The notes beneath the pieces are model-generated. The model ran no database searches. It was not told where the DNA came from and was given only the letters and a program-made list of their open reading frames with translations. Position numbers and translations under genes: made by a program. From Candidatus Uhrbacteria bacterium RIFCSPHIGHO2_12_FULL_60_25 (GTDB lineage Bacteria > Patescibacteriota > Patescibacteriia > 2-12-FULL-60-25): a stretch of 42,259 nt of DNA. Positions 958-42,259 of the stretch are shown here, piece after piece (positions within the stretch are counted from its first letter, which is position 1; each line of letters starts with the position of its first letter). The DNA is taken from NCBI GenBank assembly GCA_001791275.1, contig MGEH01000037.1, forward strand, positions 17,765 to 60,023. Direction: 5' to 3'.

Positions 958-2703
958 ATGGACGCCGCGCAGGAGGTGAAATCGAAATTGGACGTGGCCG
1001 ACATCGTCGGCGAGTACCTGACGCTCAAGCCCGCCGGGAGCGGGAGCTTCAAGGCGCTCTGCCCGTTCCACCAGGAGAAGACGCCCAGCTTCTACGTGAA
1101 CAGGCCGCGGCAGTCATGGCACTGCTTCGGCTGCGACAAGGGGGGAGACCTCATCTCGTTCGTCATGGCCATGGAGGGCACGGAGTTCCGTGAGGCGCTG
1201 GAGCACCTGGCGACGAAAGCGGGAATTCAGTTGCCCACGTTCGATCCGCAGAAATCCGGCGAACGGAAGCGTCTCCTCGAGGTGAACGACCTCGCCTCGA
1301 AATTCTTCCGCGCGACGCTCCTCGCGTCTCCTGACGCGGAACACGCGCGCGCGTACGCGGCGAAACGTCACATTGACGACCTCACGGGCGACCTGTTCCG
1401 CATCGGGTACGCGCCGCAGAGCTGGGACGCATTGACGACCGCGCTGAAGTCGAAGGGCGTGACGGACGAAGAAATGCTCAAGGCGGGTCTCGTCGCGAAG
1501 AGTGACCGAGGACCGGGCGTCTACGACCGGTTCCGCGACCGGCTCATGTTCTCGATCCAGGACGTGCACGGCAACGTCGTCGGGTTCACCGGACGACTCC
1601 TCGCGGCAGACGCGAAAGAGGCGAAATACGTGAATACGCCGGAAACAGTCGTGTACCGAAAGTCCGCCGTGCTCTACGGCCTCGACAAGGCGAAGGGGGA
1701 CATCAAGCGTCAGGATCTCGCGGTCGTCGTCGAGGGCAACATGGACGTGGTCTCGAGCCACCGCGCAGGCATCACGAACGTGATCTGCTCGAGCGGGACG
1801 GCATTGACCGAGGAACAGCTCAAGCTCGTCTCACGGTTCACGAAAAACCTCGCGATCGCGTTTGACGCGGATGCGGCAGGCGGTGCAGCGACGCTGCGCG
1901 GGTTGGACCTGGCGCGCAGCCAGGACTTCAACGTCAAACTGATCACGCTTCCGCCGGAAGCGGGCAAAGACCCGGACGACGCCGTCACGAAAGACCCGGA
2001 CTTGTGGCGGCGCGCCATCGCAGACGCGACGGATGTCATGGACTGGGTGTTCCGGAACGCATTCAAGAACCGCAGCCTGTCGAATCCGGAAGATAAGAAG
2101 CGCATCGCCGCCGGCATCCTGCCGGAAATCCGCCGCATCGCCGATCCCATCGTGCGCGACCACTGGGTGAAGAAACTGGCGTCCGGTCTTTCCGTCGGCG
2201 AAGACGCATTACGTGAGGCATTGCGTAAATCGGGAACCGGGAACCGGGAGCCGGGAACCGTCTCGAAACAAGCGCGTCCGACTTCCGGTTCCCCGTTCCC
2301 GGCTCCCGGTTCCCGGTTCCCGGATCGAGTCCGTGATCTCTCCGAGCAAGTCCTCGCAATCCTCCTCAAACGCCCTGAACTCCGCTCAACCGTCGAGATG
2401 GACCTGACCGGCATGCTCCCCGCCGACTTATCCACCCTTTACACGGACCTCGAAAGCGCATACACTCTGGCCGAACAAAAAGACCTCGTCGACATCCTTG
2501 TGATACGAGGCGACCGTGACTACCAGGATCAAACGCCGGCGACCCTTGAACGGGAACTGAAGAACGCCATCTCCCTCCTTCACGAACACGTGAAAACGTC
2601 GGCGAGACGGCAGATCGAAGAAGACATGCGACAAGCGGAACTCATGGGAGACCGCGACCGCATCCTGCAACTGACGCAACGTTTCAAAGAACTTACATCA
2701 TAA
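958..2703 (+). CDS. dnaG: DNA primase DnaG
   Basis: Primase synthesises RNA primers for lagging-strand replication and is recruited by the DnaB helicase. The 581-residue protein shows the full order of domains. A CHC2 zinc-binding domain has C35, H38, C56 and C59. The catalytic core carries the TOPRIM acidic residues E259 (VVVEGNMD), D303/D305 (AFDADAAGG) and the KDPDD motif (337-341). A C-terminal helical domain (about 457-581) is in the place of the helicase-binding domain. The ATG at 958 starts directly on the zinc-domain helix and follows a promoter by eight bases. rpoD follows 75 bp downstream in the same direction, an arrangement also seen in the macromolecular-synthesis operon of many bacteria. 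The oddity is residues 426-456, which are encoded by an inverted heptamer repeat placed exactly in the linker between core and C-terminal domain. Confidence 0.97.
   Translation: MDAAQEVKSKLDVADIVGEYLTLKPAGSGSFKALCPFHQEKTPSFYVNRPRQSWHCFGCDKGGDLISFVMAMEGTEFREALEHLATKAGIQLPTFDPQKSGERKRLLEVNDLASKFFRATLLASPDAEHARAYAAKRHIDDLTGDLFRIGYAPQSWDALTTALKSKGVTDEEMLKAGLVAKSDRGPGVYDRFRDRLMFSIQDVHGNVVGFTGRLLAADAKEAKYVNTPETVVYRKSAVLYGLDKAKGDIKRQDLAVVVEGNMDVVSSHRAGITNVICSSGTALTEEQLKLVSRFTKNLAIAFDADAAGGAATLRGLDLARSQDFNVKLITLPPEAGKDPDDAVTKDPDLWRRAIADATDVMDWVFRNAFKNRSLSNPEDKKRIAAGILPEIRRIADPIVRDHWVKKLASGLSVGEDALREALRKSGTGNREPGTVSKQARPTSGSPFPAPGSRFPDRVRDLSEQVLAILLKRPELRSTVEMDLTGMLPADLSTLYTDLESAYTLAEQKDLVDILVIRGDRDYQDQTPATLERELKNAISLLHEHVKTSARRQIEEDMRQAELMGDRDRILQLTQRFKELTS
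2231..2332. repeat. Inverted heptamer array inside dnaG
   Basis: The left arm (2231-2260) is four units of gggaacc, the third being gggagcc. The right arm (2303-2332) is its reverse complement with a single mismatch and also mirrors the variant unit; a further degenerate unit precedes it from 2285. The loop is about 42 nt. The insertion keeps the reading frame and encodes a Gly/Pro/Arg-rich linker (GTGNREPG...GSRFP). The same heptamer recurs in nrdJ at 24770-24804. Confidence 0.9.
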
Positions 2704-13384: not shown

Positions 13385-14224
13385 ATGCAGAAGAGAGGGG
13401 CGTCGGGAGACCCGCGCGCGGCGCTTTGGGCGACGTTGACTATTGTAGCGTTTCCGCTCGTCGCCATGTCCATGGGGTGGTTCGGCGTGGACCCCTTTAC
13501 GAGCTTCGTATTCGGCGCCGCCGCATCCCTCCTCGTGCTCACGGTCGAAGCCGTGGTCCGCGGCCGCTGGTGGATTTCCGACCCCGCGATCGCGCGCATT
13601 TTTTCAGATCCCTCGTTCGGGTACCGCCTCCTCGTACTCGTCGGCATCGTGGTATTGCTCTTTCAATCGCTCGTGCTGGTCGGATTCATGACCGACCCTT
13701 CGTTTGACGGGAACATCGTCCGGTTCGTTCTTGAGCGGCAGTGTGAGGCTCCATCGAATGCATTCTTCAGTCGTCTGTGTCGTGAAGCCGCGAAACCGCC
13801 CACGTCGACTGATATTGATCTTGTGACATCAGCGGTTCGAGAAGCTGCGGAGACACGTTTCTTCGCAGGCGGACTCATCACGTGCGCTGCAAAACCGCTC
13901 GTGACGAAGATTGGCGAACAATCCTGCACGTACGCCGCACTCATCCGATGCGACCGCTGGGTTGTGGGACGCATCGCCGGCCAACCTATCAGTGTTGAAA
14001 CGATCCAACGACCTGTCATTGCAATCCTCGGAATCCAGGCAGATGGGACGTACCGCGTGAACGGCTGGTCCGATGACCCGACATCGCCTGAGTGGATATC
14101 AATTGGCGGAACGATCGCGAGTCACGCGCTTGAGAAGAGTCGTGATGATCTGAGGGACGAATCCGTCGACAGCGCGCTCGCTCAAGAGACGTTCAGACGC
14201 GTGATGGAACGGATTAGTCAATAA
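13385..14224 (+). CDS. Membrane protein of unknown function
   Basis: A 279-residue protein with about three hydrophobic helices in the first 105 residues (ALWATLTIVAFPLVAMSM, SFVFGAAASLLVLTVEAVV, LLVLVGIVVLLFQSLVLVGF). A soluble C-terminal domain of about 175 residues follows, presumably facing outside. That domain contains five cysteines (ERQCEAP, SRLCREA, ITCAAKP, QSCTY, IRCDR), which would suit disulfides. No family is recognised. The start is set by an extended -10 box six bases upstream. It ends at the large inverted repeat 14230-14290, facing the cupredoxin gene. Confidence 0.6.
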   Translation: MQKRGASGDPRAALWATLTIVAFPLVAMSMGWFGVDPFTSFVFGAAASLLVLTVEAVVRGRWWISDPAIARIFSDPSFGYRLLVLVGIVVLLFQSLVLVGFMTDPSFDGNIVRFVLERQCEAPSNAFFSRLCREAAKPPTSTDIDLVTSAVREAAETRFFAGGLITCAAKPLVTKIGEQSCTYAALIRCDRWVVGRIAGQPISVETIQRPVIAILGIQADGTYRVNGWSDDPTSPEWISIGGTIASHALEKSRDDLRDESVDSALAQETFRRVMERISQ

Positions 14225-14229
14225 TAAAG

Positions 14230-14290
14230 CAGGACGTCGGGACGTAGGGTCGTCATGGCCAATCCGACGACCTGACGTCCCGACGTCCTG
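14230..14290. repeat. 25-bp inverted repeat between convergent genes
   Basis: Arms 14230-14254 and 14266-14290 match at 23 of 25 positions around an 11-nt loop. Each arm is built of about three degenerate 8-bp units (ggacgtcg, ggacgtag, ggtcgtca). It begins six bases after the stop of the membrane protein gene and ends 14 bases before the convergent cupredoxin stop, so it may act as a bidirectional terminator although it lacks a T tract. Confidence 0.75.
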
Positions 14291-22272: not shown

Positions 22273-25200
22273 ATGAGCAATCAGGCTTCCACGTCCCGCG
22301 TCGGTTCCGCCACCGGGGCAGCCGCCACCGATCCCAAGGCGCAAGCAACCGCCATCTGGGAGTACGTTACATCAGTCCGCGCGGTCAAAAAGCGCGACGG
22401 CCGGATCGAAGATTTCAATCCGCAAAAACTCGAAGCTTCCATCAGGAACGCATTTGAGGCCGCGGGCATGAAGGACGAACGCACGCTGAAACGTGTGGTC
22501 ACGAGCGTCCTCGCTCGACTCGTCAAGAAATTCGACGGTCTCGTGGTCCCAACGGCCGAAGAAGTCACGGAAGTTATCGGCGTCACGCTCATTGACGCGA
22601 ACGTGTCGCACGTGGCCAAACGGTACCTTGGCTTCCGCGTGGACACCCACGTCCTCTCGAGCGATCCCGTCTACGGCAAGGGACTCCGCGTGAAGCGTTT
22701 CTATACCAAGCCGGGAGTCCACCCCTACGACGAAATCGAGTGGGAACAGCGCGACGCCGTGATCACGAACGCCGAGGGGAAGGTTGTCTTTGAACAGAAG
22801 CGCGTAGAAGTCCCGAAATCCTACAGCCAAACCGCCACGAACATTATTGTTTCCAAGTATTTCCGGGGCCGTTTGGGCACCCCGGAGCGGGAAACGAGCG
22901 TCCGCCAGATGGTGGATCGGGTCGCCAAAACCATCACCGCGTTCGGTCGCCGTGGCGGGTATTTCCTCACGGAAGACGACGCCGTCATCTTCGAGGCGGA
23001 GCTCACATCGATACTCGTGAACCAGCGCGCGGCGTTCAACAGTCCCGTGTGGTTCAACGTGGGCGTGAACCCGAAGCCCCAGTGCTCGGCCTGCTTCATC
23101 AACTCCGTGCACGACGACATGCGTTCCATCCTGAACCTCGCGGTCACGGAAGGCATGCTCTTCAAGTACGGGTCCGGCACCGGCTCCAACCTCTCGCAAC
23201 TCCGAAGCTCCAAGGAAAAGCTCGGCGGCTCCTCCGGCCTCTCCTCCGGCCCTGTGTCGTTCATGAAAGGTCTCGATGCGTTCGCGGGCGTCATCAAGAG
23301 CGGCGGGAAAACGCGCCGTGCGGCAAAAATGGTCATTTTGGATGTGGGCCACCCGGACGTGGTCGAGTTCACCTGGTGCAAGGCGAAGGAAGAGAAGAAA
23401 GCCCACACCCTGATCGACGCCGGCTACGACGGCGCGCTCGATGGTGAAGCCTACGGGTCTATTTTCTTCCAAAACGCGAATAATTCCGTGCGAGTCAACG
23501 ACGAATTCATGTGGGCTGTGGAAGCGGACGGTGAATTTCACACCAAATACGTACTCACGAAGGACCCCTGTGAACGGTTCAAGGCGCGCGAGCTCCTGCG
23601 TCAGATCGCCACGGCGGCCTGGGAGTGCGGAGATCCGGGTGTGCAGTACGACACCACGGTGAACGACTGGCACACCTGTTCCGGGACTGACCGCATTTAT
23701 GCCTCGAATCCGTGCTCCGAGTACATGTTCCTGAACGACACGGCTTGCAATCTCGCCTCCGTGAATCTCATGACGTTCCGCGCGCCTGACGGCTCATTCG
23801 ACGTCCAGGCGTACGAACACGCCTGTGCCGTCATGATCACCGCCCAGGAGATCGTGATTGATTTCTCAAGCTACCCCACGCCTGCCATCGAACAGATGAG
23901 CTGGGACTACCGCCCGCTTGGATTGGGCTACGCGAACCTGGGCGCGCTCCTCATGAGCATGGGACTGCCGTACGACAGCGACAAGGGCCGGAACCTGGCA
24001 GCGGCCCTCACCTCCATCATGTCAGGCGCGGCTTATGAGCAATCCGCCAAAATTTCGGAGAAGCTCGGCGCGTTCCGCGGGCATGCCAAAAACGAACAAC
24101 CCATGCTCCGCGTGATGCGCAAGCACCGCGACGCCGCCTACCACATCCAAAACGACGGCGTCCCGCAACACGTCCTCGATGAGGCGCGGGCCTCCTGGGA
24201 CCGCGCGATCGCGGTCGGAGAAAAGCACGGGTACCGGAACGCGCAGATCTCGGTCTTGGCGCCTACAGGCACGATCGGGTTCCTCATGGACTGCCAAACC
24301 ACGGGCATCGAACCGCCAATCGCGCTCGTGTCGTACAAGTGGCTCGTGGGAGGCGGGATGATCAAGCTCGTGAACGAGACAGTCCCGGAAGCGCTCCACG
24401 CGCTCGGGTATTCCGAAGCCCAGATCAAGGACATCCTCGCCTTCATCGAGAAGGAAGACACCATCGAAGGCGCGCCGCACATGAAGTCCGAGCACCTCCC
24501 TGTCTTCGACTGCGCGTTCAAGGCCGCCAAAGGTTCGCGCTCCATCAACTACATGGGCCACATCAACATGATGGGCGCGGTCCAGCCGTTTCTCTCCGGC
24601 GCCATCTCAAAAACCGTGAACATGCCGGCCGATGCTACAGTCGAAGACGTCATGGACGTGTACCAGCAGGGCTGGAAATTGGGACTCAAAGCCGTGGCCA
24701 TCTACCGCGACGGCTGCAAACGGTCCCAGCCGATCACCATGAGCAAGGATGCGGTCAAAAAGACCGATGGGGCAACGGGAACCGGGAACCGGGAACCGGG
24801 AACCGCGAAGGTTTCATCGTCCGTCACGGGAGAGGCGCGCGTGGCGCGCCGTCGCAGGCTCCCCGAGGAACGCCGCGCCCTCACGCACAAGTTCCAGATC
24901 GGCCCGCACAAAGGCTACATCACAGTCGGCTTGTATGAAGACGGCACACCCGGCGAAGTCTTCATCACCATGAACAAAGAGGGGAGCACGCTCTCGGGCC
25001 TCCTCGACTCCTTCGCCACGGCCGTGTCCGTGGGCCTCCAGTACGGCGTGCCATTGAAAACGCTTGTCAACAAGTTCGCGCACGTGCGCTTCGAGCCGTC
25101 AGGTTTCACCACGAACCCAAACATCCGAATGGCGAAGAGCATCGTGGACTACATCTTCCGCTGGCTCGGCATGAAGTTCCTGTCCGCCGAAGATCGCGCG

Positions 25201-25473
25201 GCGCTCGGCATCAACGTGATCGAAGGGGGAGCCACGAGTCTTGCCGAACCCGTCCTCCACGCCGTGGAAACGCTGGCCGTGAAGGAATTCATGGCTGCGA
25301 ATCCTCAGCAAAGTCTTCTCGAGCCCGCTGCCCCGTCCGGCCTCTCCGCCCTCACCGCCACCATCGACAACCAGTCAGACGCCCCTGCCTGCGACACATG
25401 CGGCTCCATGATGGTCCGGAACGCCGCGTGCTATAAGTGCCTGAATTGTGGTGGGACGTCGGGTTGCTCGTAG
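22273..25473 (+). CDS. nrdJ: Adenosylcobalamin-dependent (class II) ribonucleotide reductase
   Basis: This enzyme makes deoxyribonucleotides using a B12-derived radical and works with or without oxygen. The 1066-residue protein has an N-terminal ATP-cone (about 36-121, VKKRDGRIEDFNPQKLEASI), which senses ATP/dATP. The catalytic barrel shows FNSPVWFNVG, the paired cysteine region QCSACF, the finger-loop SNPCSEYMFLND with the thiyl-radical Cys, and NLASVNL. The C-terminal tail ends in a Cys-rich ribbon (C1040, C1043, C1053, C1056, C1059, C1065) that re-reduces the active site. There is no intein. A linker near 835-846 is lengthened by the same 7-bp repeat as in dnaG. Two NrdR boxes overlap its promoter. 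Such bacteria usually cannot make cobalamin, so import or salvage is implied. The ATG at 22273 lacks a clear Shine-Dalgarno site. Confidence 0.96.
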   Translation: MSNQASTSRVGSATGAAATDPKAQATAIWEYVTSVRAVKKRDGRIEDFNPQKLEASIRNAFEAAGMKDERTLKRVVTSVLARLVKKFDGLVVPTAEEVTEVIGVTLIDANVSHVAKRYLGFRVDTHVLSSDPVYGKGLRVKRFYTKPGVHPYDEIEWEQRDAVITNAEGKVVFEQKRVEVPKSYSQTATNIIVSKYFRGRLGTPERETSVRQMVDRVAKTITAFGRRGGYFLTEDDAVIFEAELTSILVNQRAAFNSPVWFNVGVNPKPQCSACFINSVHDDMRSILNLAVTEGMLFKYGSGTGSNLSQLRSSKEKLGGSSGLSSGPVSFMKGLDAFAGVIKSGGKTRRAAKMVILDVGHPDVVEFTWCKAKEEKKAHTLIDAGYDGALDGEAYGSIFFQNANNSVRVNDEFMWAVEADGEFHTKYVLTKDPCERFKARELLRQIATAAWECGDPGVQYDTTVNDWHTCSGTDRIYASNPCSEYMFLNDTACNLASVNLMTFRAPDGSFDVQAYEHACAVMITAQEIVIDFSSYPTPAIEQMSWDYRPLGLGYANLGALLMSMGLPYDSDKGRNLAAALTSIMSGAAYEQSAKISEKLGAFRGHAKNEQPMLRVMRKHRDAAYHIQNDGVPQHVLDEARASWDRAIAVGEKHGYRNAQISVLAPTGTIGFLMDCQTTGIEPPIALVSYKWLVGGGMIKLVNETVPEALHALGYSEAQIKDILAFIEKEDTIEGAPHMKSEHLPVFDCAFKAAKGSRSINYMGHINMMGAVQPFLSGAISKTVNMPADATVEDVMDVYQQGWKLGLKAVAIYRDGCKRSQPITMSKDAVKKTDGATGTGNREPGTAKVSSSVTGEARVARRRRLPEERRALTHKFQIGPHKGYITVGLYEDGTPGEVFITMNKEGSTLSGLLDSFATAVSVGLQYGVPLKTLVNKFAHVRFEPSGFTTNPNIRMAKSIVDYIFRWLGMKFLSAEDRAALGINVIEGGATSLAEPVLHAVETLAVKEFMAANPQQSLLEPAAPSGLSALTATIDNQSDAPACDTCGSMMVRNAACYKCLNCGGTSGCS
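24770..24804 (+). repeat. Heptamer array gggaacc inside nrdJ
   Basis: Four exact units (24777-24804) are preceded by one degenerate unit, gggcaac (24770-24776). The array is read in the same frame as in dnaG, giving GTGNREPGT, and lies between the catalytic core and the C-terminal region. No inverted arm is present. Confidence 0.9.
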
Positions 25474-27255: not shown

Positions 27256-27317
27256 AGGGATAGTCGATGGTCGAATAGTCGATAGTACTATTCGACTATC
27301 GACTACCGACTGACCCT
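27256..27317. repeat. Heptamer-type inverted repeat (tagtcga family)
   Basis: Left arm 27256-27285 and right arm 27288-27317 are about 30 bp each, complementary with a few mismatches and one slipped base, around a two-base loop. Each arm is made of variants of tagtcga at about 7-bp steps. It lies between the divergent acidic-protein and rmuC genes, so it cannot be a simple terminator and may affect both promoters. Confidence 0.8.
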
Positions 27318-40964: not shown

Positions 40965-41000
40965 CCAAAGTTCCAATATCCAAAGTGCCAAATTTCCAAT
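40965..41000. repeat. Heptamer-like array (ccaaag family), copy 1
   Basis: Four to five units of the type ccaaagt/ccaaatt/ccaatat at 7-9-bp steps directly follow the stop codon of the gene at 41002-41934. A sister array lies at 41977-42010 behind the second paralog. Both share tgacggaccaaag nearby. Confidence 0.7.
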
Positions 41001-41001
41001 T

Positions 41002-41934
41002 TCAGGAAGAGAAGCGTCCCAGGGGACGGAAACCGACGCGCCCGAACGGCCTGCCGCCCCAGCCGACGCCCGAGGCCCCGCCATAGCCGGAGCGGCCGGA
41101 AATCAACCGCCCGCCGGACCCCGAGGTCTCTTTCTGCCATTCAGTCGTATCCGTGGTCCCCCATTCAGGGTGGTGGATGTTCGCCAGCACGTTCCAGACG
41201 ATGGTTTCCGTGAGTGAGGCTTGGCCTGGCTTAAGATCAAGGGCCTTGGCGAACGCGTTCATGACCTCCGGCTTTGTAAAGTCTGCGGGCGACAGGCCAA
41301 AACGCGATCTCGGATCAAGCTTCGTCTCGTCAAAGTTGCTTTGGCTGATGACGCCTCGGCGGTTCAAGTCTTCGAGCACAGGCGCGAGCGGATCATGGTC
41401 ATACATCTGGGCACCTTTGGCGTAGTCGGGCTTCTGCCTGCCATCCACGAGCACCCAGGCGCCTGGGAGCATGGTGGCGTCCTTTGCAATGCGACCGTCG
41501 GCGATTTCCTCGTAGAACCAGCGACGTGGCTTCTTCTCCCACCCGGGGAAGTCAGCGTCCTCTGTCATGTCCATCGGAGGGAGGTAGTGGAGCTCAAAGC
41601 CCATCGCCTCCCAGTTCTTGATGCGCTCCGGGGTGATCTCATGGGGGAGGGGCTGGACGGTGATGGATTCACCGAAGAAGGCTTTGAGCGTGGCCGCTTC
41701 TTCCTCACGGAGCTTGGAGAGTTCTGGGGCCTCGATCCTGGCCTTCTCTTTGTTTGACAGACGGAACGGTTCCCATTCAGGCTCTTCAGGCCTGCGCTTC
41801 TCCTTTGCCATGATCTTGCGCATTTCTTCTTCTGCTGCACGACCAAGAAACTTGCCGATAAGCTCGGCGTCGTCTTTCAGGCGCTTCTTGGGAGGCTCGA
41901 AGGGGTTCTCGAGGGAGTGGAAGGGAGGGGGCAT
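41002..41934 (-). CDS. Tandem paralog 1: charged protein with Gly/Arg-rich tail
   Basis: A 310-residue soluble protein, family not recognised. It starts with a Pro-rich segment (MPPPFHSLENPFEPPKKRLK). A Glu/Lys-rich helical stretch (EEEMRKIMAKEKRRPEEPEWE, LSKLREEEAATLKAFFGE) and a more globular middle (FYEEIADGRIAKDATMLPGAWVLVDGRQKPDY, then a Lys/Pro/Phe region with NAFAKALDLKPGQASLTETIVWNVL) follow. It ends in a low-complexity tail rich in Gly, Arg and Phe (GGRLISGRSGYGG, GRVGFRPLGRFSS) that recalls RGG-type RNA-binding tails. A longer frame upstream runs through the repeat array and is rejected; the ATG at 41934 has no clear Shine-Dalgarno site. The C-terminal third is about 90% identical to the next gene. 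Confidence 0.65.
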   Translation of the reverse strand: MPPPFHSLENPFEPPKKRLKDDAELIGKFLGRAAEEEMRKIMAKEKRRPEEPEWEPFRLSNKEKARIEAPELSKLREEEAATLKAFFGESITVQPLPHEITPERIKNWEAMGFELHYLPPMDMTEDADFPGWEKKPRRWFYEEIADGRIAKDATMLPGAWVLVDGRQKPDYAKGAQMYDHDPLAPVLEDLNRRGVISQSNFDETKLDPRSRFGLSPADFTKPEVMNAFAKALDLKPGQASLTETIVWNVLANIHHPEWGTTDTTEWQKETSGSGGRLISGRSGYGGASGVGWGGRPFGRVGFRPLGRFSS

Positions 41935-41976
41935 GGGTGACGGACCAAAGCTTGTCCTGAGCAACACCGAAGGATT

Positions 41977-42010
41977 CCAAAGTTCCAAAGACCAAAGGTC
42001 CAAAAATCCA
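41977..42010. repeat. Heptamer-like array (ccaaag family), copy 2
   Basis: Regular units ccaaagt, tccaaag, accaaag, gtccaaa in about 7-bp steps follow the stop codon of paralog 2, in the same position as copy 1 behind paralog 1. Confidence 0.75.
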
Positions 42011-42013
42011 ATG

Positions 42014-42259
42014 TTAGGGAGAGAAGCGTCCCAGGGGACGGAAACCGACGCGCCCGTGCGGCCTGCCGCCACCGTCGACGCCCGAGGCTCCGCCATTGTC
42101 GGAGCCGCCGGAAACCAACCGCCCGCCGGAGCCCCGGGTCTCTTTCTGCCATTCATACGTATCCGTGGTCCCCCATTCAGGATGATGGATGTTCGCGAGC
42201 ACGTTCCAGACGATGGTTTCCGTGAGTGAGGCTTGGCCTGGCTTAAGATCAAGGGCTTT
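42014..42259 (-). CDS. Tandem paralog 2, 5' part outside the window
   Basis: Only the last 81 codons are present; the frame is open to the right edge (KALDLKPGQASLTETIVWN...), and the stop codon is at 42014-42016. It matches the C terminus of paralog 1, with the same HHPEWGTTDTxEWQKET block, followed by a diverged Gly-rich tail (GGSDNGGASGVDGGG) and the shared end GRVGFRPLGRFS. The offset between the copies is about 1012 bp. Function is unknown, and the array may continue beyond the window. Confidence 0.7.
   Translation of the reverse strand, partial: KALDLKPGQASLTETIVWNVLANIHHPEWGTTDTYEWQKETRGSGGRLVSGGSDNGGASGVDGGGRPHGRVGFRPLGRFSP

Follow-up and report, generated by a model that had tools for sequence, protein, structure and literature searches.

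Tandem arrays of the heptamer GGGAACC are a dispersed repeat family of Candidatus Uhrbacteria bacterium RIFCSPHIGHO2_12_FULL_60_25 rather than a device specific to its dnaG gene, and they lie mainly inside genes, in frame. The explanation that we favor, with a probability of roughly two in three, is that 30-bp blocks of the form C(GGGAACC)4G were inserted in a burst specific to this lineage, after its split from the three congeners examined, and are tolerated by the host proteins as ten-codon loops. The blocks would have spread by copying of existing arrays, and are presumably neutral or selfish.

The mirror pair in dnaG

The gene for DNA primase, dnaG (positions 958–2703, plus strand; 581 aa; Pfam Zn_ribbon_DnaG, DNAG_N, Toprim and DnaB_bind), carries two arrays that face each other, and its reading frame is unbroken across both. 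Arm 1 (2231–2260, plus strand) is a 30-bp C(GGGAACC)4G block with the G-rich strand as coding strand and the translation SGTGNREPGT; arm 2 (2286–2322, minus strand), C(GGGAACC)5G, has five clear units and is translated as GSPFPAPGSRFP. One unit in each arm reads GGGAGCC. Positions 2231–2258 and 2295–2322 are 100% complementary over 28 nt, and extension to 30 nt brings in one mismatch (29/30), in agreement with the original prediction of an in-frame 30-bp arm repeated as its reverse complement with one mismatch and a common variant unit. The distance between the arms is about 17–26 bp: the spacer (2261–2285) is 25 bp long if arm 2 begins at 2286, and 17 bp if it begins at 2278, to which decayed units probably reach. 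Tandem Repeats Finder (TRF) reports a 21-bp unit in 2.2 copies at 2278–2323, and with this duplication and the decayed units counted arm 2 may comprise about seven units. Judged from the sequence of the UvrD-like and UvrB loci (see below), the dnaG spacer is probably host linker DNA. The single strand of the mirror pair folds more stably than shuffled sequences (z = −6.9 as DNA and −6.0 as RNA).

In the AlphaFold2 model of DnaG, the sole stretch with pLDDT below 50 is formed by residues 428–452, which join the catalytic core to the C-terminal helical domain, and the domains around the insert are still well predicted. This places the insert in a linker, as had been proposed. Orthologues of dnaG were found in 54 of the 57 genomes searched, and alignment with relatives gave a mixed answer to the expectation of precise presence or absence: the repeats are missing from the congeners, but the congener linkers are repeat-free and of comparable length (about 24–40 aa), so that dnaG by itself cannot demonstrate a clean insertion. 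An ancestral segment, equally long and repeat-free in relatives, had been named as the counter-case to insertion; it holds by half at dnaG, whereas loops of conserved length elsewhere do show insertion.

The window, i.e., the whole stretch of 42,259 nucleotides that was analyzed, contains 20 near-matches to CGGGAACCGGGAAC against 8.9 expected, a number attained in 0 of 100 shuffles. Its second array is a perfect C(GGGAACC)4G block at 24776–24805 (plus strand; translation TGTGNREPGT) within the gene for a class II ribonucleotide reductase (22273–25473, plus strand; Pfam Ribonuc_red_lgC and Ribonuc_red_2_N).

Arrays of other units are also present in the window. Between genes at 27259–27311, (GATAGTC)3.9 is followed directly by the reverse complement (ACTATCG)3.4, which makes a mirror heptamer pair, and the GATAGTC unit recurs in 6.7 copies at L067:4756. 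An 8-bp array, GGACGTCG, and 10 bp on its near reverse complement, CCGACGTC, occupy 14232–14288, just past a gene end at 14224, and degenerate 8-bp arrays, CCAAATTT and TTCCAAAG, are seen near the window end at 40965–41003 and 41975–42015.

A genome-wide family with a 30-bp module

The source assembly comprises 979 kb in 37 contigs and is 95% complete; genomes of relatives in the same class are mostly about 0.6–1.6 Mb, which points to a bacterium of the Patescibacteria type with a small genome. The exact 14-mer GGGAACCGGGAACC occurs 79 times in the genome and its reversed-letter control not at all, and with up to two mismatches the counts are 231 and 9, respectively, so that the genome-wide count suggested with the original prediction yields a dispersed family. 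Among 191 relatives, the exact 14-mer is absent from the three of the same genus and is matched twice in the 188 others, once in each of two distant genomes; 79 copies here versus two in 191 relatives point to a burst in this lineage. Scattered (GGGAACC)4 runs exist in other phyla too, e.g., in Vulcaniibacterium, a Geobacteraceae MAG and an Acidobacteria MAG, where by a rough flank test they are mostly not through-coding or genic. Arrays were read in 212 kb of sequence stretches that cover all 79 exact and 199 of the 231 near matches (about 14% of the near matches lie outside), and 57 arrays in 39 clusters were mapped. An assembly artefact was considered and rejected, as the terminal 60 bp or so are free of arrays at the 38 contig ends checked; one array is found 63 bp away from the C2 start.

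Gene calls were made with our own codon model, trained on long open reading frames. In the stretches classified, which were picked for having exact matches, 33 of the 39 clusters are inside genes and in frame, with coding signal on both sides for nearly all. This share is in line with the coding fraction, 0.89 (p = 0.31), and the arrays are thus not excluded from genes. Host proteins of replication and repair are DnaE (two sites), UvrB, RecR, a UvrD-like helicase/nuclease (two sites) and the ribonucleotide reductase; the tRNA synthetases include ValRS (two sites), LeuRS, PheT and a class II enzyme; and further hosts are TsaD, thymidylate kinase, a pseudouridine synthase, an M24 protein of the methionine aminopeptidase type and several glycosyltransferases. 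By contrast, in the congener G003 the 7–8-bp arrays, which are of other units, are intergenic in 49 of 61 cases (Fisher p about 1e-10 against GGGAACC).

Two side observations concern these hosts and G003. The LeuRS fragment that carries an array (L064:2-2242) has a NUDIX match (PF00293) at residues 204–297, between the editing and catalytic parts. The arrays of G003 (L173–L192) are degenerate and of the GGGTTAC, CCCTACT, ACCTACGA and CATGGCC types, and different kinds often adjoin.

Exactly four units are present in 35 of the 57 arrays; a C precedes the array (−1) in 40 of 48 cases, and a G follows it (+1) in 41 of 48. The insertion unit is therefore best read as C(GGGAACC)4G, 30 bp or ten codons. 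Beyond YC and G(G/T) the flanks contain no target-site motif, and no constant duplication is seen in them, with no DNA-level empty sites to compare since the congeners share only about 60–75% protein identity. All six frames of the module are open, and it encodes ten codons of the GTGNREP or GSRFPVP type, depending on frame and orientation; however, roughly one heptamer in two is open in six frames as well, so that openness alone is nothing special, and it is the 30-bp length that preserves the frame. Single genic arrays have n = 4 or 10 units, for both of which 7n + 2 is divisible by three, in a count that excludes C14, a short, irregular genic array of three units that fits the rule less cleanly. 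A genic second arm, in C29, has seven units, and arrays outside genes reach sizes of 5, 9 and 20. Genic copy number thus seems to move in steps of three units (21 bp, seven codons), the pattern to be expected for proteins that are translated and required. The unit variants GGGAACG, GGGAGCC and GGGAACA are seen, and, of 24 genic arrays that are single or split, 19 have the G-rich strand as coding strand.

A composite of (GGGAACC)2, a 24-bp core CTTCGRCTTCGCTCAGGGCAGGCT and again (GGGAACC)2 recurs at seven loci, from which it appears that arrays already present can be copied whole.

The genome holds a second dispersed family, CTTCGRCTTCGCTCAGGGCAGGC (L143–L172), found at 33 places with up to three mismatches, none of them in the window. 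Some of its sites are genic, some are intergenic hairpins of the form GGGACAGTTTTC..GAAAACTGTCCC, and seven sit precisely at the junction of the second and third units of GGGAACC arrays.

Insertion, pairing and alternative origins

The insertion is most directly seen in the UvrD-like protein, where a loop between two conserved anchors has 10 residues in all 18 aligned relatives and 30 in this genome. The gain is exactly 60 bp, i.e., two 30-bp modules, and the 10 host residues remain, six between the arms and four beyond them. As the arms account for the whole gain, the spacer is host sequence and two insertions took place. The gene itself (L077:2259-5309) is 73% identical to its counterpart in G011, a genome of another genus, versus 60–62% to those of the three congeners, which may mean gene exchange. 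RecR and UvrB also have large insertions that are missing from all aligned relatives; the net gain in UvrB is 18 residues, not 20, and the RecR insert is disordered in the AlphaFold2 model (about residues 165–190), with the fold intact. In the ribonucleotide reductase and at the C-terminal site of DnaE, the linker of the congener is equally long and repeat-free, and there, as in dnaG, the change may have been a replacement rather than an insertion.

At least 13 mirror pairs are present in the genome, outnumbered by single arrays, and all 13 are convergent with the G-rich arm first. Paired spans are 66–105 bp, with spacers of roughly 10–27 bp that have no sequence in common across loci. We favor reading the mirror pairs as two insertions on either side of host DNA rather than as one arm copied from the other, and we infer that where the second insertion landed, and in which orientation, was constrained by the first one or by a paired lesion.

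Formation of the second arm from a single inserted array, by fold-back or template switching, is closest to the original prediction that the second dnaG arm was copied from the first. It is in keeping with the 28 of 28 complementary bases in dnaG, GGGAGCC unit included, and with the presence of GGGAGCC in both arms at three loci (C7, C29 and dnaG). Our data do not lend support to it, however: over 12 pairs, the two arms of a pair resemble each other no more than they resemble arms from other loci (permutation p = 0.42), the sharing of rare variant units is marginal (p = 0.044, and 0.12 without dnaG) and mostly out of register, and second arms keep the four-unit size, while the length arithmetic of the UvrD-like loop indicates two separate 30-bp insertions around host DNA. 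We consider a templated arm very unlikely, and assign the same low standing to a MITE- or REPIN-like hairpin, whose arms and spacer move together and leave single arrays as broken copies. Inverted arms, a strong hairpin, the convergence of all 13 pairs and the similar appearance of REPINs and Rickettsia palindromic elements would suit such an element, but the unrelated spacers, the excess of single arrays, the UvrD-like loop that fits the arms alone and the lack of Y1_Tnp/RAYT in the genome argue against it.

That the arrays are ordinary simple-sequence repeats, expanded in situ and independently at each locus from chance GGGAACC-like seeds by replication slippage that G-quadruplex stalling promotes, is unlikely, even though slippage or unequal exchange evidently does occur, given the unit variants and the arrays of 9, 10 and 20 units, and many other degenerate 7–8-bp arrays exist in G003. 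Independent seeds would yield many units and broad lengths, as in that congener, instead of a single unit throughout the genome with a sharp four-unit mode and fixed C and G ends, and they leave the exact 2 × 30 bp gained in a loop of otherwise constant length and the composite at seven loci without explanation. Least probable is a selected function, be it regulation of transcription or translation by a quadruplex or hairpin, or phase variation by unit number. The array size equals the minimum of four GGG tracts that an intramolecular quadruplex needs, related GGGAATC oligonucleotides form quadruplexes in vitro (PMC4692102), by analogy with which the present arrays might do so, and the coding strand is preferentially G-rich; yet the sites are not conserved in relatives, the hosts are unrelated housekeeping genes, and genic unit numbers preserve the frame, contrary to a frame switch.

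We therefore retain insertion of 30-bp blocks as the best overall explanation. Entry of C(GGGAACC)4G into a gene would lengthen a loop by ten residues and leave the protein unbroken, and copies would persist where a disordered loop is tolerated, as in the dnaG linker. A second, convergent insertion, usually 10–27 bp off, would create a mirror pair with a spacer of host sequence, and genic copy number would afterwards shift only in the three-unit steps described above. With respect to a mobilizing enzyme, the 95%-complete genome has no match to Y1_Tnp, RVT_1 or DDE_Tnp_1; the RAYT (Y1_Tnp) search was negative at E ≤ 0.001, where control genomes gave matches, and IS200/RAYT, IS4-type transposase and reverse transcriptase were dropped as candidate movers for this reason. 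A new process is a tentative and rather unlikely possibility, in which a fixed four-unit G-rich block would be added at the 3′ ends of nicks, one nick giving a single array and two staggered nicks on opposite strands, 10–27 bp apart, a convergent pair around host DNA.

Relation to known repeats and significance

Among known repeats, the family is closest in kind to the quadruplex-forming GGGNATC repeats of Xanthomonas and Nostoc (PMC4692102), dispersed G-rich heptamers with a four-unit mode (Rehm et al. 2015). In Xanthomonas they form 70–75 convergent inverted pairs per genome, and the GGGAATC repeats are 89–93% intergenic (two genomes) and mostly common to two species (PMC4692102). The present family is likewise built on a GGG-initial 7-bp unit, is spread genome-wide, and has four units in 35/57 arrays and 13/13 convergent pairs. 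It differs from GGGNATC and GGGGA(C/T)T in its unit GGGAACC, with C at position 6, and, unlike the mainly intergenic GGGNATC repeats, it is about 85% genic (33/39 clusters) and missing from congeners. Repeats of short length that occur singly or as inverted pairs with a short spacer are also found in the REP/REPIN (BIME) systems with RAYT. The likeness is in just this arrangement; here the repeats are tandem heptamers, mainly genic, with unrelated spacers and no Y1_Tnp match.

Rickettsia palindromic elements are 105–146 bp long, have a conserved body with terminal inverted repeats and lie in frame within conserved protein genes (PMC2229807). The resemblance in outcome that the original prediction pointed out, tolerated in-frame insertion into conserved protein genes, is confirmed, as is the difference in unit and anatomy: a 30-bp tandem-repeat module, single or paired, with host-derived spacers. 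The tandem repeats of Borgs are lineage-specific and, in genes, contribute disordered stretches without loss of frame; their genic units have lengths divisible by three, and nearly every locus has a unit of its own (Schoelmerich et al. 2023, PMC9879509), in contrast to the single 7-bp unit used genome-wide here and framed by unit count. In the literature searched, we found no family that combines a single heptamer with a frame-neutral block of 30 bp and a mainly genic location, and nothing specific on repeats in candidate phyla or on the heptamer GGGAACC.

Quadruplex-type heptamer arrays have so far been described as mostly intergenic and of obscure role; here they lie within enzymes of replication, repair and translation. 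Their frequency there is close to what gene density would predict, and the apparent reason is that the common block leaves the frame intact. The nick-end process, if true, would explain why the blocks measure 30 bp, why the pairs have their polarity and host-derived spacers, and why an ordinary transposase is lacking; it would amount to a gene-friendly insertion system. The genic blocks form a natural insertion-tolerance map of essential proteins, and the burst is datable, as the congeners are without arrays, and follows a clear length rule (30 bp, 10 codons). Combined with strain or long-read data, this rule could show how such repeats move.
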